DNA of 64,000 bases from Fuscovulum blasticum DSM 2131 (lineage in GTDB: Bacteria; Pseudomonadota; Alphaproteobacteria; Rhodobacterales; Rhodobacteraceae): the NCBI RefSeq assembly GCF_003034965.1, contig NZ_PZKE01000013.1:1-64000 (forward strand), written 5' to 3'. Positions 3,825 to 61,303 of the stretch are shown piece after piece. The position numbers and the translations under genes are program-made. A model generated the notes under the pieces. It was not told the origin of the DNA and made no database searches. It saw only the letters and a list, made by a program, of their open reading frames with translations. Every line of letters starts with the position of its first letter. Position 1 is the first letter of the stretch.

Positions 3825-5453
3825 TCAGATCAGCTTGGCCACGGCGCGCAGCTCAAACTTCTGGATCTTGCCGGTGCTGGTCTTGGGCAAATCGTGGAAG
3901 ATCACATGCTTGGGCGTCTTGAACCCGGCCAGATGCGCGCGGCAATGCGCGATCAGCTCGGCTTCGGTCACCTTCTGGCCCGGCTTCAGCTCGACAAAGG
4001 CGCAAGGCACCTCGCCCCATTTGTCATCGGGCTTGGCCACCACGGCGCAGAGATTCACCGCAGGGTGCTTCATCAGCGCCCCCTCGACCTCGACAGAAGA
4101 CACGTTTTCGCCGCCCGAGATGATGATGTCTTTCGCCCGGTCGGTGATCTGCAAATATCCGTCCGGGTGCTGCAAGGCGATGTCGCCGCTGCGGAACCAG
4201 CCATCCTTGAACGCCTCGGCGGTGGCTTCGGGGTTCTTGTAATAGCCTTTCATCACCAGATTGCCGCGCATCGCGATCTCGCCCAGGTGATGGGCGTCGC
4301 GCGGAACCGGCTGGCCGTGGGTGTCATGCGCCTCGGCGCCTTCCAGCATGGCCATCCGTACGCCCTGGCGCGATTTCAGCTCGGCCCGCGCGGCGCCTTC
4401 GGTGCCGTCCCAGTCCGGCATCCACAGACATTCGGTGGACGGGCCATAGGTTTCGGTCAGGCCGTAAACCTGCGTCACGTTGAAGCCCAGCGGTTCAAAC
4501 GCGGCCAGCGTGGCGGCGGGCGGCGGGGCGCCGGCGGTAAACACCTCGACCACATGGGAAAACTCGCGCCGGTCCTCGGGCCTGGCATTGACGATGGTGT
4601 TCAGAACGATGGGCGCGCCGCCGAAATGGGTGACGCCTTCGTCGGCAATCGCGTCATAGATCGCCTTCGCGGTGATGTCGCGGCAGCAGACCACGGTGCC
4701 GCCCAGCATCGGCACCATCCAGGTGTGGCACCAGCCGTTGCAGTGGAACAGCGGCACGATGGTCAGATAGGCGGGGAACAGGGTCATCCGCCAGGCCACG
4801 GCATTGGCCATCGTTGCCAGATAGGCGCCCCGGTGGTGATACACCACGCCCTTGGGCCGGCCCGTGGTGCCGCTGGTGTAGTTGATCGCCAGCGATTCCC
4901 ATTCGTCCTGCGGCATCAGCCAGGCGAAGCCGGGATCGCCCTTTTCCAGCAGTTCCTCATAGGTCAGGTAATGGCCCGAGGCGGTCTGGCCATGATCCAC
5001 CACCTCGATGATCTGCGGCGCGGCCCCGTCCATCTTGCGGATCGCCTGTTCCGCCAGTGCGATATAGGCGCTGTCACAGAGCACGATCTTCGCCCCGGCA
5101 TGGCCGAAGATATAGGCCACCGTATCGGCATCCAGCCGGGTGTTGATGGTGTTCAGCACCGCCCCGCAGGCCGGCACGCCGAAATGCGCCTCGGCCTGGG
5201 CGGGAATGTTCGGCAGCAGCGTGGCCACCACATCGCCCGGGTGGATGCCGCGCCGCGCCAGGGCGCTGGCCAGCAATGTCACCCGATGGGCATATTCGGC
5301 ATAGGTCAGGCGCGTGGTCTTCCAGACCAGCGCCGTGCGGTCGGCAAAGACATCGGCCGCGCGCTTCAGATGCGACAGGGGCGTCAGCGCCACATGGTTC
5401 GCGGCACATTTTTCCAAGCCAGATTCATCGGCCAGCCAGCCCATCGTCGTCAT
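3825..5453 (-). CDS. AMP-dependent acyl-CoA synthetase/ligase
   Basis: ANL-superfamily ligase of 542 aa that activates a carboxylic acid to an acyl-adenylate and then to acyl-CoA. The P-loop-like signature INYTSGTTGRPKGV (about residue 190), the adenylate motif YGLTETYGP (about 325), the hinge region SGDIALQHPDGYLQITDRAKDIIISGGENVSS (read in parts, about 415-450) and the catalytic lysine segment KTSTGKIQKFELR at the C-terminus are all present. It resembles the medium/long-chain and methylthiopropionyl-CoA ligase group, but the substrate cannot be read from sequence. The promoter should lie in the 81-bp divergent gap shared with the DMT exporter. Confidence 0.9.
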   Translation of the reverse strand: MTTMGWLADESGLEKCAANHVALTPLSHLKRAADVFADRTALVWKTTRLTYAEYAHRVTLLASALARRGIHPGDVVATLLPNIPAQAEAHFGVPACGAVLNTINTRLDADTVAYIFGHAGAKIVLCDSAYIALAEQAIRKMDGAAPQIIEVVDHGQTASGHYLTYEELLEKGDPGFAWLMPQDEWESLAINYTSGTTGRPKGVVYHHRGAYLATMANAVAWRMTLFPAYLTIVPLFHCNGWCHTWMVPMLGGTVVCCRDITAKAIYDAIADEGVTHFGGAPIVLNTIVNARPEDRREFSHVVEVFTAGAPPPAATLAAFEPLGFNVTQVYGLTETYGPSTECLWMPDWDGTEGAARAELKSRQGVRMAMLEGAEAHDTHGQPVPRDAHHLGEIAMRGNLVMKGYYKNPEATAEAFKDGWFRSGDIALQHPDGYLQITDRAKDIIISGGENVSSVEVEGALMKHPAVNLCAVVAKPDDKWGEVPCAFVELKPGQKVTEAELIAHCRAHLAGFKTPKHVIFHDLPKTSTGKIQKFELRAVAKLI

Positions 5454-5534
5454 CCTCCCTCATGTCGCTTTCAAGCGCGCAGACCCTAGGTTAGCAGGCT
5501 TGACTGCGGGTGAAAGAGGAGGAATGCCCCGAAA

Positions 5535-6458
5535 ATGCAAGCCCCTGACAAGACCCTGGCCGCTGCGGGGTGCATCCTGATCTATGCCACGATCATCGGC
5601 TTTACCGACAATTATGTCCGGCTGATCGCGGTCGAAGCGGGGCTGTGGCAGTTCCATGCCACCCGGACGGCCATGGCGCTGGCGCTGTTGGGGCTGGCGG
5701 TGCCGTTCCTTGGGTTGCGCTTGCGGCCGGTGAACGGGCGCGCGGTGCTGGCGCGGTCGGCGATCCATGGCACGGCGATGGTGATCTATTTCGGCGCGCT
5801 GGCCTTTCTGCCGGTGGCCATTGTCGCGGCGGGCCTGTTCACGGCGCCGATCTTCGTGCTGCTGATCTCGCGCTTTGCCTATGGGCACGCCATTGGCCCG
5901 GTTCGCATCCTTGCGGTCGGCCTTGGCTTCCTTGGGGTGATCCTTGTCCTTGGGCCGCAAGCGCTGTCGGGGGCGTCGCTGGCGGCGGTGCTGCCGGTGG
6001 CGGCGGGGGCGATGTATGCCTTGGGCAATATCGCGACACGCGAATGGTGCCCGCAGGAAAGCGCCGAAACCTTGCTGGCCGGCTTTTTCGCGGCCCTTGG
6101 GGTGTTCGGCCTGATCGGCATGGCGGCGCTGGCGCTGTGGCCGGTGGCGGTGCCCGCCGGTGCCGACGGGTTCCTGCTGCGCGGGCCGGTCTGGCCTTCG
6201 GCCGGCTTCCTGTTCTGGGTCTTCGTGCAGGCGGCGGGGTCGCTTCTGGGGGTGGGGCTGATGATCCGCGCCTACCAGATTGCCGATGCCGGCCGGGTCA
6301 GCGTGCTGGAATATGTCATCCTGCCGGCTTCGGCCTTCTGGTCCTGGATGATCTGGGGGGAAACCCTGTCGGTGCAGGCCTGGGCCGGAATGGGGCTGAT
6401 CGTGGCTGCCGGGGCGCTGATCGCCTTGCGCGCAAGGGCGCAGGCGGTGGCGGTCTGA
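5535..6458 (+). CDS. DMT-family (EamA) inner-membrane transporter
   Basis: Predicted drug/metabolite exporter of 307 aa with about ten hydrophobic segments in two repeated EamA halves (roughly residues 8-140 and 150-300). Charged loops such as RLRPVNGR separate the helices. The substrate is unknown. An RBS-like GAGGAGG lies upstream (5515-5523). It is divergent from the acyl-CoA synthetase, and the 81-bp gap must hold both promoters. Confidence 0.87.
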   Translation: MQAPDKTLAAAGCILIYATIIGFTDNYVRLIAVEAGLWQFHATRTAMALALLGLAVPFLGLRLRPVNGRAVLARSAIHGTAMVIYFGALAFLPVAIVAAGLFTAPIFVLLISRFAYGHAIGPVRILAVGLGFLGVILVLGPQALSGASLAAVLPVAAGAMYALGNIATREWCPQESAETLLAGFFAALGVFGLIGMAALALWPVAVPAGADGFLLRGPVWPSAGFLFWVFVQAAGSLLGVGLMIRAYQIADAGRVSVLEYVILPASAFWSWMIWGETLSVQAWAGMGLIVAAGALIALRARAQAVAV

Positions 6459-6509
6459 TCGCCAAAGAGGCGCCTTTTCAACGGATTGGCGCCGCGCCCC
6501 TTGGGGGCG

Positions 6510-7088
6510 CTAGTCCCCCACCGCCGCGCGCCAATGTTTGCGGCACAGGCTCTGATAGGTTTCGTTGCCGCCGATCACCACCTGATCGCCGTCCCGCAGC
6601 GCCTGCCCGTCCGGCCCCTTGCGCACCACCATCGTTGCCTTGCGGCCACAATGGCACATGGTGCGAACTTCGCGCATCTCATCCGCCCAGGCCAGCAGGG
6701 CGGCCGATCCGGGGAAGAGGTTGCCCTGGAAATCCACCCGCAGCCCGTAGGCCATGACCGGAACCTTCAGGTCATCCACCGCCCGGGCCAGTTGCCAGAC
6801 CTGATCTTTGGACAAGAACTGTGCCTCGTCGATGAAGACACAGGCGCAGGGGCCAGAGGCCAGCCGCGCCGCGATGCGGGCGAACATGTCATCCTCTGGT
6901 CCGAAGGTCTCGGCCTCGGCACCGATGCCGATCCGGCTGCCGATCCGCCCCGTTCCGGCGCGATCGTCCAGCCGGGCGGTCAACAGAAAGGTGGCCATGC
7001 CGCCTTCGTGGTAGTTGTAGGCCGCCTGCAGCAAGAGCGTCGACTTGCCGGCGTTCATCGTCGAATAGTGAAAATGCAGCTTCGCCAT
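6510..7088 (-). CDS. tdk: Thymidine kinase
   Basis: Phosphorylates thymidine to dTMP in salvage. It is 192 aa, the size of type II bacterial and viral TKs. Motifs: P-loop YSTMNAGKS (about residue 8-16), Walker-B-like CVFIDEAQFL (about 84-93), the lasso region, and zinc-binding cysteines CHCG (about 145) and the later C in LCRKHW. I start at 7088 (MAKLHFHYST) because the P-loop sits at the normal distance from the N-terminus; the longer open frame upstream lacks homologous sequence. Confidence 0.95.
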   Translation of the reverse strand: MAKLHFHYSTMNAGKSTLLLQAAYNYHEGGMATFLLTARLDDRAGTGRIGSRIGIGAEAETFGPEDDMFARIAARLASGPCACVFIDEAQFLSKDQVWQLARAVDDLKVPVMAYGLRVDFQGNLFPGSAALLAWADEMREVRTMCHCGRKATMVVRKGPDGQALRDGDQVVIGGNETYQSLCRKHWRAAVGD

Positions 7089-7241
7089 GCCTTGCCCTAA
7101 CGTCCCGAAGGGGGGAGGCGCAAGCCCGACCCTGCGTGCCCCGGCAGCGGCGGTTTTGGCCATGACAAATGGCTTTTGCATGAGTAAGGGGGATAAATGA
7201 TCACGATTTCCCCGCAGCTTCTGCGGCCCGGAGAATGAAAA

Positions 7242-7694
7242 ATGTCGACGGCAAGCTACCTGAAGAAGCACACCGAGGCGCTGGTCAAGGACGTGGGGGT
7301 CGAGGCTGCCTGCGCCATCACCGGCAAATCGAAGGCGACGCTGGGCCGGTATTATTCGGAAAATGACGAGCACGACGACAGGTTCATGCCCATCGACGTG
7401 GTGGCTGCGCTGGAAGCCGCGTCGCGCTTTCCGCATGTCACCTCGGCGCTGGCCGATCTGCGCGGCATCACGCTGAGTTATGACAGCGACAAGCACGATG
7501 GCGCGTCAAAGGGCGTGAACCAGGACGTGGTGGCCCTGGCGCAGCGCTTTGCCATGCTGATGAGCGAATACAATCAGGCCATCAGTGACGGCAAGATTAC
7601 CGTCAATGAATCCAAGCGGATGCTGCGCGAGACGCTGGCCCTGCAGCAGGTGCTGCTTCAGATGAAGCTCAACCTCGAGGAAGAGGCCGGCTAG
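7242..7694 (+). CDS. HTH-like regulatory protein (phage CII-like)
   Basis: 150 aa cytosolic protein. Residues about 15-45 (AACAITGKSKATLGRYYS) look like a helix-turn-helix, followed by a segment reading MPIDVVAALEAASRFPHVTSALA. That arrangement occurs in proteins related to the phage CII-type regulatory family. The C-terminal third is helical and may dimerise. The ATG is preceded by a GGAGA RBS (7231-7235). Its last 26 bp overlap the convergent end of the RhlE-type helicase. Function unproven; the match to the CII family is by pattern only. Confidence 0.7.
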   Translation: MSTASYLKKHTEALVKDVGVEAACAITGKSKATLGRYYSENDEHDDRFMPIDVVAALEAASRFPHVTSALADLRGITLSYDSDKHDGASKGVNQDVVALAQRFAMLMSEYNQAISDGKITVNESKRMLRETLALQQVLLQMKLNLEEEAG

Positions 7695-8973
7695 GACGCT
7701 TGGCCCCGCTGCGCTTGGGGGCCTGGCCGCCGCCCATGGGCCGGGGTTTGGCCTGCGGCTTGGCGCCGGCCTTCGCGGCCGGGCGGGGGCCGGGGCGGCC
7801 CTGACGCTGCTGCGGGCGCGGGTTCGCGGCCACCACTTCGGCAGACCACGGCGCACCGCCAATCACCGGAAGCGGCTTTTTCAGAATTTTCTCAATGGCT
7901 TGCAGCTCGCCCATCTCAGCGGGTGCGCAGAAGCTGATGCTGGCCCCTTCGGCCCCGGCGCGGGCGGTGCGGCCGATGCGGTGGACATAGTTTTCCGGCA
8001 CATTCGGCATGTCATAGTTGTAGACGTGCCGGACGGTGGGAATGTCGATCCCGCGTGCGGCGACATCGGTGGCGACCAGAACGTCCAGCTCACCCGCCTT
8101 GAATTCCGACAGCGTCCGGTCGCGCTGGTTCTGGCTGCGGTTGCCGTGAACGGTGCCGACGCGGAAGCCCCAGCTTGCCAGCAATTTGTTAAGTTTGTCT
8201 GAACCGTGCTTGGTGCGGCAGAACACCAGCGCCTGCTCGCCTTCATGCGTCTTCAGATAGGTCTCCAGCAGGCGGGCCTTGTCGCCGTTGGGGATGTAAT
8301 GGACGCCCTGCGTGACCTTTTCCGCCGGCTTGCCGGGGGGGGCCACCTGCACCTTGACCGGGTCGCGCAGATAGGTGGCAGCGATTTCGTCAATGTCCTT
8401 GGGCATGGTGGCCGAGAACATAAGCGTCTGACGACGCAGCGGAATATGCTTGGCGATGCGGCGCAGGGCGTGGATGAAACCCATGTCGAGCATGTGGTCG
8501 GCTTCATCCAGAACCAGATAGCCGCATTTCTCCAGGCTGACATCGCCGCGTTCCAGCAGGTCGATCAGGCGGCCGGGGGTGGCGACCAGAACATCGGTGC
8601 CGCGCACCAGCGCCTGCGACTGCTTGTTCAGCGAGGCGCCGCCGACCACCATGACGATCTTGATGGCGGTGCCTTTGGTGAAAACTTCAAAGTTTTCACG
8701 GATTTGCGTGGCCAGTTCGCGGGTGGGCACCAAGATCAGCGCGCGCACGTTGCGGGGGCCGGGGGGGTGGCCGATGTCCAGCAGCCGGTGCAGCAGCGGC
8801 AGGCCGAAGGCCGCCGTCTTGCCGGTGCCGGTCTGGGCCAGACCCATCAGATCCTTGCCCTGCATGATGGCGGGAATGGCCTGCGCCTGAATCGGCGTCG
8901 GCGTTTGCAGCGCGGTTTTTTCCAGCGCTTTCAGGAGTTTGGGCGAAAGGCCCAGGGCTTCGAAAGTGGTCAT
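7669..8973 (-). CDS. rhlE: DEAD-box RNA helicase, RhlE type
   Basis: ATP-dependent RNA helicase of 434 aa acting in rRNA maturation or RNA decay. All motifs are readable: Q motif before IPAIMQG, motif I AQTGTGKT (about residue 49), Ia PTRELA, Ib TPGRLID, motif II DEAD, motif III SAT, motif V ATDVAARGID and motif VI HRIGRTARAG. The C-terminal tail (about 375-434) is basic and Pro/Gly/Lys-rich, typical of RhlE proteins. The start at 8973 gives the normal MTTFEALGLS opening. It converges with and overlaps the small HTH gene by 26 bp. Confidence 0.94.
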   Translation of the reverse strand: MTTFEALGLSPKLLKALEKTALQTPTPIQAQAIPAIMQGKDLMGLAQTGTGKTAAFGLPLLHRLLDIGHPPGPRNVRALILVPTRELATQIRENFEVFTKGTAIKIVMVVGGASLNKQSQALVRGTDVLVATPGRLIDLLERGDVSLEKCGYLVLDEADHMLDMGFIHALRRIAKHIPLRRQTLMFSATMPKDIDEIAATYLRDPVKVQVAPPGKPAEKVTQGVHYIPNGDKARLLETYLKTHEGEQALVFCRTKHGSDKLNKLLASWGFRVGTVHGNRSQNQRDRTLSEFKAGELDVLVATDVAARGIDIPTVRHVYNYDMPNVPENYVHRIGRTARAGAEGASISFCAPAEMGELQAIEKILKKPLPVIGGAPWSAEVVAANPRPQQRQGRPGPRPAAKAGAKPQAKPRPMGGGQAPKRSGAKRPSRPLPRG

Positions 8974-9261
8974 GGTCGTTCCATACGTCAAGGGACGGGC
9001 GGCCCTCGTCCGCGGGGAACCCCGTTGACCGTGCGCGCCGTCGGCGCCCCTGCGTGATGGTGGGAACCTGTCGTCCGGGCCGGATCAATGCTCACGCGGC
9101 ACGGGCTTTCGGACAGGGCGGACATGGGGCTTGCGGCGCGGTATGTCAAGCGTCTGCGTCAGGTATGCGTTGCGTATGCGCGGCGTATGACGGGCGGCGC
9201 ACGCCCGGTTCACCGATTTTCAGCCGCCCCGCGCGCAGACTGCCTGCCCGGAGGTGGACCC

Positions 9262-9747
9262 ATGACCAAGGCAGAGGACCGGGCGCGCGCCCATTATCAC
9301 CGCATGGCCGAGGGCCTGCGCCGGCTGGAAATGGCGCTGCACGGCCCGGCCCGCGGCACCGGCGCGGTGCCCGAGGCCTGGCACGGCATTGCCCAGAGCG
9401 CCGGCCCTGGCCGCAAGACGCGGGTGACGCTGTGGGTTGAGGTCGAGGTGCTGGAGTTCTTTCGCGCCATGGGCGCGGGCCACACCGCCCGCATGGCCGA
9501 GGTGCTGGCCACCTTTCGCCACGCCCGGCTGGCGGGCGTGGTCAAGGGCCCCGAGGACGTGGCCTATGACCGCCCGCTGCTGTCACCCGAGGCCGAGGCG
9601 GCGGCCGCCGCGCGCGAGGCGCAGGCGCGGGCCCTGATGGCGCGGCTGGACCGGACCCGCCCCGCGCCGACGGTCATGGACGACGACGAGGAGGCGGCGC
9701 GGCTGGAGCGGCTGGTGGCGGAGATGGAGCGGCGGCGGCGGAGGTGA
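9262..9747 (+). CDS. Orphan BrnA-like antitoxin-domain protein
   Basis: 161 aa. The middle (about residues 50-85) reads KTRVTLWVEVEVLEFFRAMG and continues into AGHTARMAEVLATF. This matches the C-terminal ribbon-helix-helix-like fold of BrnA-type antitoxins, which repress their own operon. The C-terminal third is Glu/Ala/Arg-rich and probably helical. An RBS GGAGGTGG lies at 9250-9257. I find no BrnT toxin gene upstream (8974-9261) or downstream, so it is an orphan, perhaps a DNA-binding regulator. The longer in-frame extension back to 9088 lacks an RBS and was not used. Confidence 0.72.
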   Translation: MTKAEDRARAHYHRMAEGLRRLEMALHGPARGTGAVPEAWHGIAQSAGPGRKTRVTLWVEVEVLEFFRAMGAGHTARMAEVLATFRHARLAGVVKGPEDVAYDRPLLSPEAEAAAAAREAQARALMARLDRTRPAPTVMDDDEEAARLERLVAEMERRRRR

Positions 9748-9803
9748 GGGGGGCCGGCCCCATGTTGGCGCTGCGGGTGGGGCCGGAGCGAGAGGGCCGG
9801 AAA

Positions 9804-9826
9804 GCGACCGTCCAGTGGACGGTCGC
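9804..9826. repeat. Perfect 10-bp inverted repeat
   Basis: GCGACCGTCC at 9804-9813 and its exact complement GGACGGTCGC at 9817-9826, with loop AGT. It starts 57 bp after the stop of the BrnA-like gene and can serve as a terminator stem on either strand, although no T-run follows. The sequence looks like a dispersed intergenic palindrome of Rhodobacterales genomes, but that is recollection and not shown here. Confidence 0.7.
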
Positions 9827-9895
9827 CCGGCCCGATTGCCCGCAGGCCGCAAAGGCCGGAGGGCAAGGGGGGTGCGTCTGGGTCTTGCAGGGTGG

Positions 9896-9966
9896 AAATC
9901 GGGACGCGCCTGCCTGGGCGGGCGCGGACTCGCGCCTGCCGGGGGCAGGCAGGCGCGGCCCGATTT
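9896..9966. repeat. 19-bp imperfect inverted repeat, large loop
   Basis: The arm at 9896-9914 (AAATCGGGACGCGCCTGCC) and the arm at 9948-9966 are complementary at 18 of 19 positions, around a 33-bp loop. The loop contains another copy of CGCGCCTGCC (9931-9940). The right arm also overlaps the left arm of the next hairpin (9958-9985), so the two structures are mutually exclusive in RNA. Confidence 0.75.
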
Positions 9967-9985
9967 GTCGCGGGACAAATCGGGC
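9958..9985. repeat. Perfect 12-bp inverted repeat
   Basis: GCCCGATTTGTC at 9958-9969 pairs exactly with GACAAATCGGGC at 9974-9985 around loop GCGG. It lies immediately upstream of the switch to AT-rich DNA and 88 bp before the dgt start. It could be a terminator for transcripts entering from the left, or half of an attenuator-like switch with the preceding repeat. Confidence 0.75.
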
Positions 9986-10018
9986 GGGCCGAACACCCCA
10001 TTATCCTTCATCTACTGG

Positions 10019-10046
10019 ATTGACAGCTTACTTGGGTGAGTATCAT
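10019..10046 (+). promoter_or_regulatory. Candidate dgt promoter
   Basis: TTGACA at 10019-10024 matches the sigma-70 -35 consensus, and TATCAT at 10041-10046 is a fair -10 at 16-bp spacing. The dgt ATG is 28 bp beyond the -10, with GGGAG (10061-10065) as RBS. Inferred from sequence only. Confidence 0.45.
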
Positions 10047-10073
10047 CTGATCGAAGCAATCGGGAGTTGCAAA

Positions 10074-11408
10074 ATGGACTGGGCATCATTGCTTAATCTG
10101 GGGCGGCTTGGGGATCCTTCCTATGCTGAAGAACCACATCGCCCCATATACGTACAAGATTCAGATAGAATTGTATTTTCGCAACCATTTCGGCGATTAG
10201 CGAATAAAACTCAAGTCCACCCCCTTTATGAGAATGACCACCTTCATCATAGACTTATACATAGCATTGAAACCGCAAGTGTTGGGCGGTCTTTGGGGAT
10301 GTCAGTTGGGCATTGGCTTGAAACGCAAAAACACATTGAGGCTGGGCAAAAGCACGCTATCTCTGGATTGGTTTATGCGGCGTGCCTGGCGCACGACATA
10401 GGTAATCCCCCCTTTGGTCACTCAGGGGAAGCAGCCATGGGCGAATGGTTTGAGGAGAGACTTGACGGCGCAAAGGGAATATTTGGTGCGGTTGAGGCAT
10501 CTCATCGAGCTGAATTCGAGCAGTTCGAAGGCAATGCGCAAGGCTTTAGAATACTCACGCGACTTGAAATGTATCGAAATCAAGGCGGCATGCGCTTGTC
10601 GAATGGGGTGTTGGCGACCTTCGCGAAATATCCGGTCACTGCATACGTAAAGAGTTCTGTTCGCGAGTCGTATTGCGGTCTAAAGAAGTTTGGCGTCTTC
10701 GAAGCGGAGCGAGAAATTTTTGAGGAAGTTGCCTTGGCAACCGGATTGCGGGCTGAGAGCAGCCCAGTTGGTGTAAGTTGGTGGCGACGCCATCCCCTTG
10801 TTTTCTTGGTCGAGGCCGCCGACGATATTTGCTACAGCATACTTGATTTGGAGGATGGGTTTACGGCTGGAGATCTTTCATTTGAAGCCGTTCGCAGCCA
10901 TTTAGAGCCAGTCAGTGGTGTCCCAAATCATCAACGAGAAGATAAGACGGAGATAGAGTGGATTTCCTATCTAAGAGCCCGCAGCATTGGGGCTTCGATT
11001 CATTCGTGTGTTGAGGCGTTTATTGAGAACTATGATTCAATAATGGATGGAACATTTAGCAACTCTCTAATAGATACTTGTTCGAAAAATAAAGAATTTT
11101 ATGGCATAAAGAAGGTCTCTCGCGAGAGAATATTCACAGCTCGCAGAAAAACAGAGTTGGAAGTTTCTGGAAGAAATACAATTAGGCAGGTCTTGGATGG
11201 AGTTTTGCCTGTATTGGACGAGCTGAAGACGAAAAACTGGGACGAATCAAAGCTGTCTGATTATAATGGGAAATTGTCACGCGCTATAAATCTCGATTTT
11301 CGAGATGCAAAAGACAGCTACCATGCTTTGCACGTATTGTGTGATTTTGTGTCCGGGATGACTGATCGTTATACCTTGAAAGTGGCACGTATGATTTCTG
11401 GAAATTAA
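10074..11408 (+). CDS. dgt: dGTP triphosphohydrolase (accessory Dgt, HD domain)
   Basis: HD-superfamily hydrolase of 444 aa that cleaves dGTP or other dNTPs to deoxynucleoside and triphosphate. The metal site is complete: RLIHSIE (His about residue 62), AHDIGNPPFGHSGE (HD pair about 107), and EAADDICYSILDLEDG (Asp about 245). FEGNAQGFRI and the C-terminal SGMTDRYTL match the E. coli-type Dgt family. Base composition is strikingly unlike the neighbours: 24 of 60 bases are G or C at 10141-10200, against 39 of 60 at 13201-13260 in carB, and codons such as AAA, AAT, ATA and TTA are common. Standing alone between core genes, it looks horizontally acquired. Dgt enzymes of this group are known anti-phage dNTP-depletion factors, so defence is a reasonable inference. 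It ends 5 bp before the convergent end of carB. Confidence 0.88.
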   Translation: MDWASLLNLGRLGDPSYAEEPHRPIYVQDSDRIVFSQPFRRLANKTQVHPLYENDHLHHRLIHSIETASVGRSLGMSVGHWLETQKHIEAGQKHAISGLVYAACLAHDIGNPPFGHSGEAAMGEWFEERLDGAKGIFGAVEASHRAEFEQFEGNAQGFRILTRLEMYRNQGGMRLSNGVLATFAKYPVTAYVKSSVRESYCGLKKFGVFEAEREIFEEVALATGLRAESSPVGVSWWRRHPLVFLVEAADDICYSILDLEDGFTAGDLSFEAVRSHLEPVSGVPNHQREDKTEIEWISYLRARSIGASIHSCVEAFIENYDSIMDGTFSNSLIDTCSKNKEFYGIKKVSRERIFTARRKTELEVSGRNTIRQVLDGVLPVLDELKTKNWDESKLSDYNGKLSRAINLDFRDAKDSYHALHVLCDFVSGMTDRYTLKVARMISGN

Positions 11409-11413
11409 TCACA

Positions 11414-14743
<3,330 letters not shown>

Positions 14744-30287: not shown

Positions 30288-30363
30288 GCCCAGATAGCTC
30301 AGTTGGTAGAGCAGCGGATTGAAAATCCGCGTGTCGCTGGTTCGATTCCGGCTCTGGGCACCA
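30288..30363 (+). tRNA. tRNA-Phe (GAA)
   Basis: 76-nt cloverleaf. Acceptor stem GCCCAGA (30288-30294) pairs with TCTGGGC (30353-30359), discriminator A, and CCA is encoded (30361-30363). The D-loop carries AGCTCAGTTGGTAGAGC. The anticodon GAA is at 30321-30323 in the loop TTGAAAA, and the T-arm has GGTTCGATTCC. It closes the infA-yacG run. Confidence 0.98.
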
Positions 30364-30556
30364 CTTGAATCCCTGACATTGTCGATGACCTTGCTGAACG
30401 CCGCGCGTCGGGCGATGCGTTGCCGGTTTGGGGCCGCCGGGCGCGGGGCGCGGGGTGTTTTCATTCTGCTCAGCCTGTGGTCTTCGCTGCGGGCCGCTGC
30501 CGCGTTCCGGGGCGGTGGCGACAAAAAACAATCAGAAGTTGTATTTTGCGTGCAGC

Positions 30557-30583
30557 TTGAGAGGGAATCGCGTATACCATAAT
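30557..30583 (+). promoter_or_regulatory. Possible promoter of the Hint-domain gene
   Basis: TTGAGA (30557-30562) and CATAAT (30578-30583) lie 15 bp apart in a locally AT-rich stretch, 46 bp upstream of the Hint gene ATG. Spacing is short of ideal. A strong AGGAGGTGAC RBS (30616-30625) supports efficient translation. The 266-bp gap after tRNA-Phe holds nothing else that I can name. Confidence 0.3.
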
Positions 30584-30629
30584 GAGATATGCGTGATTGC
30601 AGTCTGTACATGTACCAGGAGGTGACAAG

Positions 30630-31766
30630 ATGGCCGATCTGTTCGATGTTACACGGCTTTTCGAGCCGCCAGCCGTGGGAACGACCTATACCCCGGCAGG
30701 GTCGGGGGGGAGCGCGTCCTTTGGCTACATGCAGGACGGCATCTCGGCCAATCTGCAGGACCCGACGCAGATGCAGGCCGGCGATACCGTGACCTGGGGC
30801 GGCGTGACCTATGATGTCACATCGCTGCAATCTGCCACGGTGACGGTGACACAGGCGAACGGCGGGGTCACCATCTCGAACCTGCAAAGCTATGTTGTCG
30901 GGCTGACCGATCCGACTGACCCGGCCAATACCATGTGGCTGTGGCTGCCGGTCGACAATACGCTGCTGCTGAATGTCGACATCGGTATTCCGCAACTGCT
31001 GACGCAAGGTGTGGTGCGGGATCTGAACATTCAGGCGCTGACGCCGATCACCAGCATTCCCTACAGCGACATCGACCAGAACGAGGATGTGCTGACGCTG
31101 TGCTTCACGGCGGGCACCCGGATCATGACCGGGCAGGGCGAGGTGATGATCGACCATCTGAAGGTGGGCGATCTGGTGACCACCTGCGACGCGGGGCTGC
31201 AGCCGGTGCGCTGGATCGGGCGGCGGCATCTGGATGCCGCGACGCTGGCCAGGCATCCGCAGTTGCGGCCTGTCCGTATCCGGGCCGGGGCGCTGGGGGC
31301 GGGTATCCCGACGACGGATTTGGTGGTTTCCCCGCAGCATCGCGTGCTGGTGCGGTCGAAGATCGCGCAGCGCATGTTCGGTGTGCAGGAGGTGCTGGTC
31401 GCGGCCAAGCAACTGCTGGCGCTGGACGGCATCGAGATGGCCGAGGATATGGCCGAGGTGACCTATGTCCACATGCTGTTCGATGCGCATCAGGTGGTGA
31501 TCGCCAATGGCACCGAGGCCGAGAGCCTGTACACCGGGCGCGAGGCGCTGCGGTCGGTTGGTGCGGTGGCGCTGGAAGAAATCTTCGCGATCTTTCCGCA
31601 ACTGCGCCATCGCCACATGGATGAGGCCCCTGACGGGGCACGCCGGCTGCTGACCGGCCGGCAGGGCCGCAGTCTGGCACATCGGCATCTGCTGAACCGG
31701 AAGCCGGTGGTGATGGCGGCCGGTGTCGTGGCGGCGGCCCGGGCGGCAGAGCACGTCGGCGGCTGA
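30630..31766 (+). CDS. Hint-domain (Hint_2) protein
   Basis: 378 aa. Residues 1-155 form a poorly conserved beta-rich region with no signal peptide. A Hedgehog/intein-type Hint domain follows, beginning with the nucleophilic Cys158 in LCFTAGTRIMTGQGEV and including VGDLVTTCDAGLQPVRWIGRRHL, then VSPQHRVLV and LFDAHQVVIANGTEAESL. Such proteins are common in Rhodobacterales. They may self-cleave at the cysteine and may be secreted by type I systems, but the role is unproven. The start was chosen for its AGGAGGTGAC RBS. Confidence 0.88.
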   Translation: MADLFDVTRLFEPPAVGTTYTPAGSGGSASFGYMQDGISANLQDPTQMQAGDTVTWGGVTYDVTSLQSATVTVTQANGGVTISNLQSYVVGLTDPTDPANTMWLWLPVDNTLLLNVDIGIPQLLTQGVVRDLNIQALTPITSIPYSDIDQNEDVLTLCFTAGTRIMTGQGEVMIDHLKVGDLVTTCDAGLQPVRWIGRRHLDAATLARHPQLRPVRIRAGALGAGIPTTDLVVSPQHRVLVRSKIAQRMFGVQEVLVAAKQLLALDGIEMAEDMAEVTYVHMLFDAHQVVIANGTEAESLYTGREALRSVGAVALEEIFAIFPQLRHRHMDEAPDGARRLLTGRQGRSLAHRHLLNRKPVVMAAGVVAAARAAEHVGG

Positions 31767-56536: not shown

Positions 56537-57145
56537 TCAGAGCGTGGCCGGGCAGGGCTGTTCGATCAGGCAGACCCGGCGCGCATAGCGCGGGCGGGTG
56601 ATGACAAAATTGTCGAACGTATAGCTTGAGCCGGTTCCCAGCCCGAACAGGCCCAGTTCCCTGGCCGGGTTCGACAGGACGAAGAAAGTGGGGGTGAAGC
56701 CCACCTCGGTTTCGACCAGCACCGCGGAATCGCGATCGGCCATCACGGGAATCCGTTCGGTGGCCATGGCCGCCAGCTCCGTCTTGGTCAGCGGTGGCAC
56801 GGCGTTGTTGGGCGATTTCGAGAAGAGGACGTAATATTCCTTCTTGGTGGCATCCCATTGGAACGAGGTGATGCGCATCCGCACCGGGGCGCCGCCGGTC
56901 AGGTATTCCATCGACTTCTGCATACCGTTCACGAAGTTCATGTCGATGTCGCTTTGCCGCGAGATCAGGTCCGAGACGGCGTAATTCGCCTTCTGCGCCA
57001 TGTTGATCGCGCGGAAACTTTCCCAATAGACGAACAGCGCCAGGAAGGCCCAGATCAGCAGGGGCAGAAGGATAAGGAACTCTGTCATGACCAGACCGTC
57101 CTCGCGGCGCGAGAACTGCCGGATGCGTGAGACGAGGGAACGCAT
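56537..57145 (-). CDS. TadE/TadG-type pseudopilin-like protein
   Basis: 202 aa. Basic start RQFSRREDG followed by the TadE-like membrane segment LVMTEFLILLPLLIWAFLALFVYW (about residues 17-40, Glu at +5 of the processed part), then a periplasmic beta-rich domain. It belongs to the Flp pilus (Tad) accessory set, whose proteins are cleaved by TadV/CpaA-type peptidases. The neighbouring two genes are of the same class. Confidence 0.85.
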   Translation of the reverse strand: MRSLVSRIRQFSRREDGLVMTEFLILLPLLIWAFLALFVYWESFRAINMAQKANYAVSDLISRQSDIDMNFVNGMQKSMEYLTGGAPVRMRITSFQWDATKKEYYVLFSKSPNNAVPPLTKTELAAMATERIPVMADRDSAVLVETEVGFTPTFFVLSNPARELGLFGLGTGSSYTFDNFVITRPRYARRVCLIEQPCPATL

Positions 57146-57157
57146 ACCGCTTGCTCC

Positions 57158-57715
57158 TCAGTACGGTTCGGTCACGACCAGGGTCGAGGTCATGATCTGA
57201 TAATCGCCGGTGAGCGAGTCGGCCCGAAGCCCCAGGCCAAGGCCGGTGGTCGGGAAGATCGGCTTCGCCGTGGTGCAGATCCGCACGACCATGATCTGGT
57301 TGGCGCTGCCGGCCGAGACCTTGCCGGATTCCAGGCTGACCAGCTTGCCATTGCCATCGCCGCAATAGGCATTGTCGCCCGGGATGACCCAGGTCGAGGT
57401 GTTGACCGGCGCGATCCAGACCTTCAGCTTGCTTTTGCAGTCGCCCAGGATCGGGGTCGCGTCGCAGATCAGGTCGCGCAGCTTGTCATGGTTGATTTCG
57501 GCAATGTTTCCAAGGCGGAAGTCGCGCATCACCAGATCAAGGCCGCGGTCCATCGAGACATAGCGCAGCGTGTAATAGCCCGCCTCGACCGAGGCCATGA
57601 AGATGCCCACCACGACCGGCACGAACATCACGAATTCGATCGTGGCGGTTCCGTCTTCGCGCCGCCACAGACGGCGCAGGCGCCGGGCCATGCGCGACAG
57701 CAGGGGGCGTGTCAT
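57158..57715 (-). CDS. TadE-like pilus assembly protein
   Basis: 185 aa. LWRREDGTATIEFVMFVPVVVGIFMASVEAGYY (parts, about residues 17-48) is a TadE signature with the conserved Glu at position +5 from the Gly. The C-terminal domain has four cysteines (LICDATPILGDC, YCGDGNG, RICTTAKP) that could form disulfides. It overlaps the TadG-like gene by 4 bp. Confidence 0.88.
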   Translation of the reverse strand: MTRPLLSRMARRLRRLWRREDGTATIEFVMFVPVVVGIFMASVEAGYYTLRYVSMDRGLDLVMRDFRLGNIAEINHDKLRDLICDATPILGDCKSKLKVWIAPVNTSTWVIPGDNAYCGDGNGKLVSLESGKVSAGSANQIMVVRICTTAKPIFPTTGLGLGLRADSLTGDYQIMTSTLVVTEPY

Positions 57716-59481
57716 TGCGTCAGCCTCAACTGGCTGAGGTTCGAGGCGATGAGCGCGAAGGCCGTCTTGATTTCAAGGCCGTTCACATCGAAGAAATAGG
57801 TCGAGGACGGGCTTGAGGCGCAGTTGCGGATCGCATTCGCGCCGCGGTTGTCGGTCTCGAACGCGATGCCGTAAACCAGCATACCCTTGCTTTTGGCCTG
57901 GGCGCAGATGTCGTTCAGGTTGGCGTCCATGGTGGGCGTGTTGTCGTGGGTGTTGGTCCAGTCAAGATAGCTGCGGAACTTGTTCTTCCATTCGGCATAG
58001 GTGGTGTTCATGCAGCTTGTGGTCGTGCACAGGGCGCGGGCGTAAAGCTGCCAGGCCACCCAGTCGGTATGGGCGTAGGACCAGACCTCGTTCCAGGAAA
58101 GCCGGGTGGTGTTCGTATAGGTCGCCGTGGTGGAATAGCAGGCCGAGCCCGAGGGGGCGGTGCCGTTCCAGGGCCGGGAATGCCAGGCGCCAAGGTGCGG
58201 AACATAGAAGGGGCGGCTGTTGCACAGCTTGGTGGTGGTCGAGGAATCGACCTTGCTGGCCACGAAGATCGACATGTATTTGTCGTTCGCGCGCCAGATG
58301 TCCGATTTCGTGGTGCCGAGATAGGTGTCCGAGAACCGCTCCTGGTCGAAGTTGGCGCCGTCTGTCATCAGCACGATGACCTTGAGCGTTTCCTTGTCGC
58401 CATAGTCGGCCGGGCGGGTGCTGAAATAGGCCGGAATGTCGCCCGAGGTGACCATCGATTCCGTGATGCCGCGCGAGGTGGGGTCAAGCAGATAGGTGCC
58501 CCATTTCATGCCAAGGTCGATGGAGGTTGCGCCAACCGGAACAAGCCCGTCGATCTGTGCCTTCAGGGTTGTCTTGTTGTTGTTGTGCATCCGCACATAG
58601 TTTCCGGCGACCGGGCTGCACCAGAGGTTCGTATACAGCTTCCGCGTGGTGTCCCACTGGGGCTCCACGATCGCGACATAGCTGGTCGGGGTTGACATGT
58701 TCGTGGCCCAGGCCTGACCGAAGGGCGATTGCTTGATCGGCGTCGTGCGCGAAATCGTGGTGGTGCCGTAGGTATTGGTGGGCAGGTTCAGGCAATATGA
58801 TTTCCCGGTCGCCCCGTTCGGCTGGCTGGTCGGGAATGTGTGCCCGCCGTTCACGTTGAATTTCGAGATCAGCGTCGGCCCAAGGTTCACCTGGCCGTTA
58901 TAGGGCACGATGGTGATCGAGATCTTGTTCTCGGTATCGTTCTCAAGGACCGTATCGACGAAATCCTTTGCCGCCGACTTGAGGTTGTTGATGCGGCTGA
59001 TCGTGTTGTACATTGACCCGGAAACGTCGAGAACCAGCGCGATTTCCACATTGGTGACCCGCTGTTCGGCCTGGCTGACGTTCAGCGCCTCCAGATAGGG
59101 CACGTCCATCATCGACATGAAGTGGTTGGGCGAATTCACCGTTGCCTTGGCGGTGACGGTGCGCGAGTTCATCGCCTGCTGGACATCGACGGTGTCAAGC
59201 TCCTCGTCGAGGCCGGATTTCTTGAACCAGTCCTCAACGACCGCGGTCGGGTTCAGCGTCTGTTTCAGGCTGGCCGCGGCAAGGGTGGCGCGGTCCATGG
59301 TGTTCTGCACCGAGACGCGCTTGGTTTCGAAGCGCATCATGTCAACCGCGATGCCGCCGATCAGGATCATCAGGAAGAAGAAGATCAGGATATGGACGGC
59401 CATCACCCCTGATGTGTCGCGGGCAAATCGGGCAGAGCGGCGGCCCAGTCCGTGCAATGCAATCCGCAGAAGGTTCTTCAT
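57712..59481 (-). CDS. TadG-like protein with von Willebrand A domain
   Basis: 589 aa. TadG-type N-terminal helix GVMAVHILIFFFLMILIGGIAVDMMRFE (about residues 26-53), then a vWA domain starting VEIALVLDVSGSM with MIDAS DxSxS (about 146-158) and a second MIDAS element VIVLMTDGANFDQERFSD. The long mid-domain is rich in Thr, Asn and Tyr, a bias for an extracellular adhesive part. I take ATG 59481, with AGGA about 8 bp upstream; ATG 59490 is too close to the RBS. It is the first gene of a three-gene operon. Confidence 0.9.
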   Translation of the reverse strand: MKNLLRIALHGLGRRSARFARDTSGVMAVHILIFFFLMILIGGIAVDMMRFETKRVSVQNTMDRATLAAASLKQTLNPTAVVEDWFKKSGLDEELDTVDVQQAMNSRTVTAKATVNSPNHFMSMMDVPYLEALNVSQAEQRVTNVEIALVLDVSGSMYNTISRINNLKSAAKDFVDTVLENDTENKISITIVPYNGQVNLGPTLISKFNVNGGHTFPTSQPNGATGKSYCLNLPTNTYGTTTISRTTPIKQSPFGQAWATNMSTPTSYVAIVEPQWDTTRKLYTNLWCSPVAGNYVRMHNNNKTTLKAQIDGLVPVGATSIDLGMKWGTYLLDPTSRGITESMVTSGDIPAYFSTRPADYGDKETLKVIVLMTDGANFDQERFSDTYLGTTKSDIWRANDKYMSIFVASKVDSSTTTKLCNSRPFYVPHLGAWHSRPWNGTAPSGSACYSTTATYTNTTRLSWNEVWSYAHTDWVAWQLYARALCTTTSCMNTTYAEWKNKFRSYLDWTNTHDNTPTMDANLNDICAQAKSKGMLVYGIAFETDNRGANAIRNCASSPSSTYFFDVNGLEIKTAFALIASNLSQLRLTQ

Positions 59482-59869
59482 GCCGGGCATCCTGTCAGGT
59501 CAAATTCATGTCCGAATGGAACAGGGACGTGAGTATTCTACCGGATTAGAGGGAGTCATCGGCCAAATTGTGGCGAGTCCGGGTCTGAGAGCCGACAATT
59601 GTGGGTTGAGGAAACGATTTGTACGGGTTTTCGGGATTGATGCCGGGCTGGCAACCGGCGCCCTCAACCCCCGATTGTGTCTGTGCGTCCGGCGCGCAGC
59701 ATGGCGCTCGCCGGTGGCGAATCGGAGTGCCGGAACAGACTTCACAATGACGACGCAGAGGGTTGCCGTCAGGCATTTCGACAGATGCGCGACAGGTTTC
59801 GCTTGGCTATGATGCAGCGGTCGGCGGGCGAGGGGCCCGGAATGTGCCGGCACAGGGAGGATAGTAGTT
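59482..59869. other. Divergent gap between tadG-like and gdhA
   Basis: 388 bp without a credible gene, moderately AT-rich. It holds two copies of AATTGTGG (59566-59573 and 59597-59604), 31 bp apart and in the same orientation, which could be an operator. The RBS AGGGAGGAT before gdhA is at 59854-59862. Confidence 0.5.

Positions 59870-61303
<1,434 letters not shown>

Follow-up and report, generated by a model that had tools for sequence, protein, structure and literature searches.

A likely anti-phage dGTP triphosphohydrolase gene as cargo of a miniature hotspot at the 3′ end of carB

An AT-rich gene beside carB

The window, which is the whole 64,000-nucleotide stretch of Fuscovulum blasticum DSM 2131 DNA analyzed here, contains an AT-rich gene for a dGTP triphosphohydrolase (dgt) next to carB, and the question it raises is how such a gene came to be there and what it does. 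A preliminary description of the sequence had pointed to an AT-rich dgt patch beside carB, an observation that is confirmed here. The features relevant to the locus are as follows.

7669 to 8991, minus strand: DEAD-box helicase gene, left flank
9265 to 9747, plus strand: BrnA-antitoxin-like gene, hallmark of the slot, pointing at carB (PF14384, 28.0 bits against a cut-off of 26.1; start chosen by homology)
9748 to 11413: cassette interval of 1666 bp, from the BrnA-like stop codon to the carB stop codon
9804 to 9985: three perfect-arm palindromes (9804–9826, 9931–9957 and 9958–9985) in GC-rich DNA between the BrnA-like gene and dgt
10074 to 11408, plus strand: accessory dGTP triphosphohydrolase gene dgt (PRK01096-like), 444 aa, assigned by family models, PDB matches and residues
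11414 to 14941, minus strand: carB, carbamoyl-phosphate synthase large subunit, whose 3′ end bounds the slot on the right

The surroundings in the window have a G+C content of ~66–67% and a GC3 of about 85%, and the eight other window genes measured range in GC3 from 80.5 to 92.5%, versus 46.5% GC and a GC3 of 43.8% for dgt. The odd composition first noted for positions 10141–10200 (24 G+C in 60) is reproduced, and GC and GC3 computed gene by gene single out dgt as the outlier. When 60-mers were taken across the whole window at steps of 20, 15 of the 16 with 24 or fewer G+C fell in 9960–11410. By composition, dgt is foreign to its host. Elsewhere in the window, the region 30288–31000 has a tRNA-Phe gene followed by lower-GC DNA (58.2% at 30501–31000), and ~3 kb at 57001–60000 have 58–62% GC, below most of the window.

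The reading frame of dgt is open from 9744, and the gene had been taken to start at 9748. The likely start is instead the ATG at 10074, where the family models and PDB matches begin and which has a GGGAG-7-ATG arrangement. The stretch 9748–10073 is 68.1% GC and probably noncoding, so that on its left the AT-rich patch begins near 10000 and not at the h219 stop. On the right, the last base of the dgt stop is 11408 and the first of the carB stop is 11414, which leaves the 5 bp originally counted. The identity of the neighbor as carB was likewise borne out, and its true start is probably near 14743, because homology begins at residue 67 of the ORF.

The cluster of inverted repeats described to the left of dgt corresponds to three of the 12 palindromes in the window (perfect arms of at least 9, loop up to 7), all within 9804–9985. 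Their candidacy as a genome-wide repeat was dropped, as 9748–10073 matched only itself in its own genome. Palindromes with a TCCAGTGGA core (or close variant) and differing self-complementary arms occur at slot edges in several genera, including 9804–9826 in the window and sites next to carB in loci L195, L204, L208 and L040; they are possibly a terminator-like family. A scan for promoters and terminators gave nothing above chance. A tRNA at the slot was also considered and rejected, the only tRNA of the window being at 30288.

The encoded enzyme

The dgt protein passes the TIGR01353 dGTP triphosphohydrolase model with 328.3 bits (curated cut-off 152.35). It matches the PRK01096 equivalog NF002205 over its full length at 408.5 bits, just under the cut-off of 439, and falls far short of the NCBI anti-phage dGTPase model NF041026 (174.1 versus 400 bits). 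The PADLOC dGTPase model PDLC02374, which is displayed without a curated cut-off, matches it at E=6.8e-65 and 218 bits. Its closest solved sequences are 2pgs, 3bg2 and 7tu0, and CloA chains 9p8s–9p8v are among its PDB matches.

The intact HD active site read from the sequence earlier is present together with its partner residues: H63, H107-D108, H116, E119, D250 and D251, comprising the metal-binding H/HD/D set and the catalytic H-E pair, are invariant in 12 dgt homologues. Because these residues are conserved, and because the HD-to-H-E spacing is the one given for CloA in PMC12265719, the protein likely hydrolyzes dGTP. The slot at carB turns a PRK01096-type dGTPase, from a subfamily that the named anti-phage model does not cover, into a direct candidate for phage testing.

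Copies, distribution and phylogeny of dgt

As the preliminary description had anticipated, a core dgt exists elsewhere in the genome. It lies on contig C6, is of the PRK01286 type (above cut-off) and has 66.4% GC. A second accessory copy of anti-phage type is found on contig C7 at 99593–100867 (5594–6868 of locus L054), with 52.5% GC and 466.8 bits for NF041026 against the same cut-off of 400. Given these two, the window dgt is a third, accessory copy. Near the C7 gene lie a gene for a UvrD/PD-(D/E)XK protein, a sub-threshold match to a JAB domain and what look by eye like transposase genes.

Presence of the same dgt at this locus, with the same composition, in most close relatives had been named beforehand as contrary to the proposal, and it is not what is seen: none of 12 other genus members carries dgt at the carB site. 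The only one of the 12 with a member of the family at all is G006 (C62:149888–151254, locus L051), where the frame is broken, the GC is host-like and the locus is a different one. Across Rhodobacteraceae sampled at one genome per genus, 22 of 393 genomes have a match at E≤1e-40; in 19 it reaches E≤1e-129, and in the other 3 it is weak. Within Paracoccus, 12 of 121 genomes match, eight strongly; seven of those eight carry the gene away from carB. The eighth, P. hibiscisoli (G444), has a 58%-identical dgt of 50% GC, against flanks of 68.6%, between a BrnA-like gene and carB.

The Dgt tree (40 rows) departs from the species tree, as the preliminary description had proposed to check. The Acetobacter sequence and that of an Azospirillum plasmid form a pair (100/100), and the copies on Rhizobium plasmids are nested with Paracoccus aminophilus (99/94), a pattern that indicates transfer. 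The window dgt and that of P. hibiscisoli form a pair at 91/86, which is under the support threshold of the tool. Omitted from the tree were L088 (same place as L058), L094 (internal stop) and the broken G006 copy. A phage donor was sought; matches occurred in 25 phage records, none of them reaching 60% identity, so no phage donor is seen among them.

The family is not confined to foreign-looking DNA. Of 40 homologue loci, 37 have a GC within 6 points of their flanks, and one clade lies 74–113 bp downstream of clpB, with host-like GC, in 8 roseobacter-type loci (L016–L018, L089, L090 and L094–L096; L007, L021 and L088 were left out of the neighbor clustering). With most relatives at host-like GC and one clade beside clpB, a cellular role of the family is possible too. 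Since relatives in other genera mostly resemble their hosts in GC, and some of them occupy conserved housekeeping positions, this is not purely a defence family.

These data bear on whether the window dgt could be a dNTP-pool or mutation-avoidance enzyme that landed in a permissive intergenic gap and has no defence role. The relatives at stable loci, such as those behind clpB, and the failed match to NF041026 are what such an explanation would lead one to expect, but it is considered unlikely: a core and another accessory dgt are already in the genome, Rhizobium plasmid relatives adjoin multiubiquitin/ThiF, TIR or SIR2 genes, and the other cargo of the carB slot, described below, is rich in defence genes, including a dCTP deaminase, another nucleotide-depletion enzyme.

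On the Thioclava plasmids of loci L060, L062 and L064, a dgt of this family lies directly behind queD-queE-type genes (7-deazaguanine synthesis), and on the Rhizobium plasmid of L056 dgt is near genes for 7-cyano-7-deazaguanine synthase and dTMP kinase.

The carB 3′ flank as an insertion slot

The earlier proposal that other genes, many of them of defence type, would occupy the same spot in relatives holds. Within the genus of the window, the carB flank varies. For instance, one of the 12 other members (G007) has a BrnA-like gene plus a different AT-rich ORF, and G003 has yet another AT-rich ORF without a BrnA-like gene; a SLATT label assigned to the latter by eye was dropped, there being no Pfam match. 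Several members have an ORF at this flank that is PRC-barrel-like by eye, and several have the DEAD-box helicase gene near carB without the BrnA-like gene.

In Paracoccus, the first kilobase past carB is below 56% GC in 16 of 36 flanks, as opposed to 0 of 36 at both 2.2–3.2 kb and 3.2–4.2 kb. To obtain these flanks, 40 of the 120 carB-bearing genomes were used, counting from the head of the list and passing over a few close to contig ends; the sequence was long enough in 36 of the 40. The corresponding counts in other genera are 2, 0 and 1 of 18 (first kilobase and two control kilobases), so that in these flanks a strong AT-rich signal is confined to Paracoccus.

Screening of 121 Paracoccus genomes detected a BrnA-like gene in 47. 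It lies within 5 kb of carB in 35 of the 47, convergent with carB in all 35, at a median gap of 1729 bp. Of the other 12, one is far off on the same contig and 11 are on a different contig from the listed carB; several of these 11 are at contig ends, and two such contigs end in carB sequence. The remaining 74 genomes have no BrnA-like match, and some are still AT-rich at carB. Several matches read through a stop, so that some copies look shortened or broken.

The size of the interval differs greatly between relatives. Unfilled slots have 30 and 48 bp between the BrnA-like and carB stops or, in those lacking the BrnA-like gene, 51 and 67 bp separating carB from a cobI-type methylase gene. At this latter place, the interval measures 1971–2432 bp in six relatives with a BrnA-like gene and cargo, 1.3–1.5 kb in five with no BrnA-like gene detected, and 285 bp in one more. 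The range seen in the first six suggests that the BrnA-like gene and its cargo arrived as one unit of about 2–2.4 kb. Filled and unfilled sites were compared for sequence common to the slots beyond either stop codon, and none was found.

Three unrelated cargos were seen at the site, in P. hibiscisoli, G429 and G543, the latter being the two genomes with a 99% identical C-terminal part of carB. This variety bears on ancient vertical inheritance of dgt with many losses, in which AT-richness would be a property of the gene itself. The presence of dgt in the same slot of P. hibiscisoli accords with such descent, but the two genomes with the 99% identical carB part hold unrelated cargo, the site lacks dgt in all 12 genus members, other family members have host-like GC, and a GC3 of 43.8% would be expected to ameliorate with time. 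Ancient descent is accordingly rated very improbable, and horizontal acquisition of the window dgt is preferred.

The window dgt is cargo of a recurrent miniature hotspot consisting of a BrnA-like gene, an AT-rich cassette of mostly 1–3 kb and the carB 3′ end. Conserved flanks and varied, defence-rich content, by which core defence hotspots are recognized, are both found here, with a 5′-side control that is only rough.

The BrnA-like gene beyond carB

The BrnA-like family occurs in 54 of 393 Rhodobacteraceae genomes. It is rare outside, as a class-wide sample of 367 genomes gave four matches at E≤1e-8, three of them in Rhodobacteraceae. Of 114 listed loci, 83 remained once five at contig edges and the ones lacking a BrnA-like match had been removed. 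Carriage at carB accounts for 59, and 24 have no carB in the fetched stretch. The carB intervals are below 57% GC in 43 of 59 cases; interval ends at the non-carB loci were set by GC, which biases their GC values.

A comparison of the two sides of the gene was made at 45 loci not chosen by GC (45 of 52, with L014 and six short-flank loci dropped). The 3′ side was >8 points lower in 17 and the 5′ side in one (Wilcoxon p=3.4e-5). At the 24 loci without carB, the figures were eight and one (p=0.0065). Genes on the far side include lepA in three loci, the AdoHcyase gene (ahcY) in two, and those for a transaldolase, a sigma-54 regulator and pheS. In G028, where lepA on the far side was read across a contig break, the cargo is again dgt. 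In the genome of the window, the region C3:244643–247600 (4653–7568 of locus L235) repeats the carB arrangement: a second BrnA-like gene, then a 374-aa AT-rich cargo ORF of 51% GC, then a convergent transaldolase gene.

A BrnA-like neighbor is present for three of five AT-rich dgt genes (the window, P. hibiscisoli and G028, but not Acetobacter and Azospirillum), and for none with host-like GC among 50 homologue stretches, duplicates included.

There are two readings of this distribution. On one, Rhodobacteraceae have a new, minimal kind of mobile cassette with the BrnA-like gene as its hallmark, in which this small BrnA-domain gene travels with one swappable AT-rich, often anti-phage cargo whose end rests against a housekeeping stop codon (carB, lepA, ahcY, tal and others); this is offered as a tentative possibility. 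On the other, which is quite possible, the gene is a mere synteny marker and the convergent gap at carB a generic, harmless place for insertion. The AT-rich Paracoccus slots without a BrnA-like match, and the shortened or broken copies, fit the synteny marker. The skew of AT-rich DNA to the 3′ side, seen at loci without carB as well as in the full set, and the range of far-side genes speak against the marker. No integrase was seen in the cassettes that were read. The exchange of one- and two-gene cassettes between converging genes, without an evident integrase, is a concrete question that the slot raises.

A search of the BrnA-like protein against solved structures returned no match, and its AlphaFold2 model is poor (pLDDT 54.8). 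The BrnA domain is a ribbon-helix-helix. The protein might be an antitoxin or repressor that silences each cargo gene as in a toxin-antitoxin unit, with which the PF14384 match and the constant orientation in 35 of 35 carB-near cases are consistent. Such a role is regarded as improbable, since a single antitoxin could not match cargo of such variety, and since the strand of the cargo is variable. Moreover, several BrnA-like matches appear to be broken copies, and an essential antitoxin would not be expected to decay in this way.

Cargo content

When all sites were pooled, that of the window included, 89 cargo proteins formed 78 clusters, eight with more than one member; the cluster count is an upper bound, as the ORFs (90 aa or longer) were predicted by a script and may include spurious ones. 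Cargo proteins were taken only from intervals below 57% GC, so that their AT-richness is by selection, which does not apply to the flank comparisons above, and twenty further carB intervals were chosen for having a BrnA-like gene near carB. Cargo genes occur on either strand.

One cargo protein is an anti-phage dCTP deaminase, with 406.5 bits for NF041025 (cut-off 400) and a PADLOC match at 2.7e-132. Other PADLOC matches are to Drt2 (3.2e-124), NsnA (NsnA/PD-T4-2; 1.5e-68), HEC-04 (1.8e-47), Old (Old/AriA-like; 2.4e-35) and a ThsA-type SIR2 (4e-19), along with PDC-M15A, PDC-M43B and PD-T4-5. Pfam domains among the 25 listed of 73 families include GmrSD_N, SLFN_AlbA_2, SocA_Panacea, RES, AbiEii, Fic and SIR2_2. 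Certain PADLOC matches fall on promiscuous ATPase models, and among the cargos there are also transposases or insertion sequences, genes that look metabolic by eye and genes that match nothing. The PRC-barrel-like ORFs, transposases, a ParA-like ATPase and the contents of some multi-gene cargos were named by eye only.

In total, 297 PADLOC families were matched by 88 cargo proteins, versus 53 by 79 proteins located 5′ of BrnA-like genes, a rough control in which families and not proteins are counted. The best matches on the 5′ side were mad3 (2.4e-29), then BrxHI and DpdF. When 20 hand-picked cargo proteins were scanned one at a time, a PADLOC match at E≤1e-4 was obtained for 12 and none for the other eight. 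These eight genes occupy the position held in related species by dCTP deaminase, Drt2 and SIR2 genes. A slot with a recognizable flanking gene is, in this sense, a ready-made trap for new defence genes.

Proposed explanation

Taken together, the window dgt probably encodes a stand-alone dGTP triphosphohydrolase, was gained by horizontal transfer and forms the cargo of a miniature carB defence hotspot; it is likely anti-phage. The core dgt and the varied, defence-type cargo at the slot support the original suggestion of an accessory gene in a recombination hotspot, and anti-phage dNTP depletion is the likeliest role for it.

Under this model, the slot would accept one- or two-gene AT-rich cassettes between the converging BrnA-like and carB genes, where insertion should break nothing. 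Cassettes would be replaced as the flanks stay, most simply by homologous recombination in the conserved flanks, and phage selection could keep defence genes in the slot for a while. Upon infection, the enzyme would most likely cut dGTP to deoxyguanosine and triphosphate, and the depletion of dGTP would starve phage replication, as is reported for the Shewanella dGTPase. As for the BrnA-like gene, it may just travel along, keep new cargo silent or help the cassettes to move.

Comparison with known systems

Anti-phage dGTPases were reportedly described by Tal et al. in 2022. For the Shewanella enzyme (SpdGTPase), it is reported that dGTP is cut and phage replication starved (PMC12265719). Like the product of the window dgt, the anti-phage dGTPases are HD-domain dGTP triphosphohydrolases encoded by a single gene, with the same H/HD/D and H-E residues. 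The window dgt differs in belonging to another subfamily, as its NF041026 score indicates. The Clover system (CloA-CloB) resembles it in that CloA chains are among its PDB matches, the link from chain to Clover being taken from the same paper. Unlike Clover, the window dgt has the BrnA-like gene and carB as neighbors, and the CloB nucleotidyltransferase partner is not beside it.

BrnTA is a type II toxin-antitoxin system. It has in common with the hallmark gene of the slot the PF14384 domain, which scores above cut-off. The slot differs from BrnTA in that unrelated cargo lies on the 3′ side. In the ORF list, no separate ORF stands between the helicase and BrnA-like genes, and none resembling BrnT was seen beside the latter.

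Defence hotspots bounded by core genes are already known, for example cDHS1 and cDHS2 of Pseudomonas aeruginosa, in which 29% and 47% of sites are without a detectable mobile gene and median sizes are 26 and 6 kb (PMC10250203). As at carB, core genes there bound a site with many different defence genes. Among the best matches to titles and abstracts in open-access PMC, where carb and carbon add noise, neither a carB slot nor a BrnA-marked hotspot came up. Compared with cDHS1 and cDHS2, the carB slot is mostly 1–3 kb long with one or two genes, is not near a tRNA in the window, and has a lineage-specific flanking gene that recurs at several sites. Within the scope of those titles and abstracts, what is apparently new is a miniature slot at carB whose marker, a BrnA-like gene, is found again beside several other housekeeping genes.
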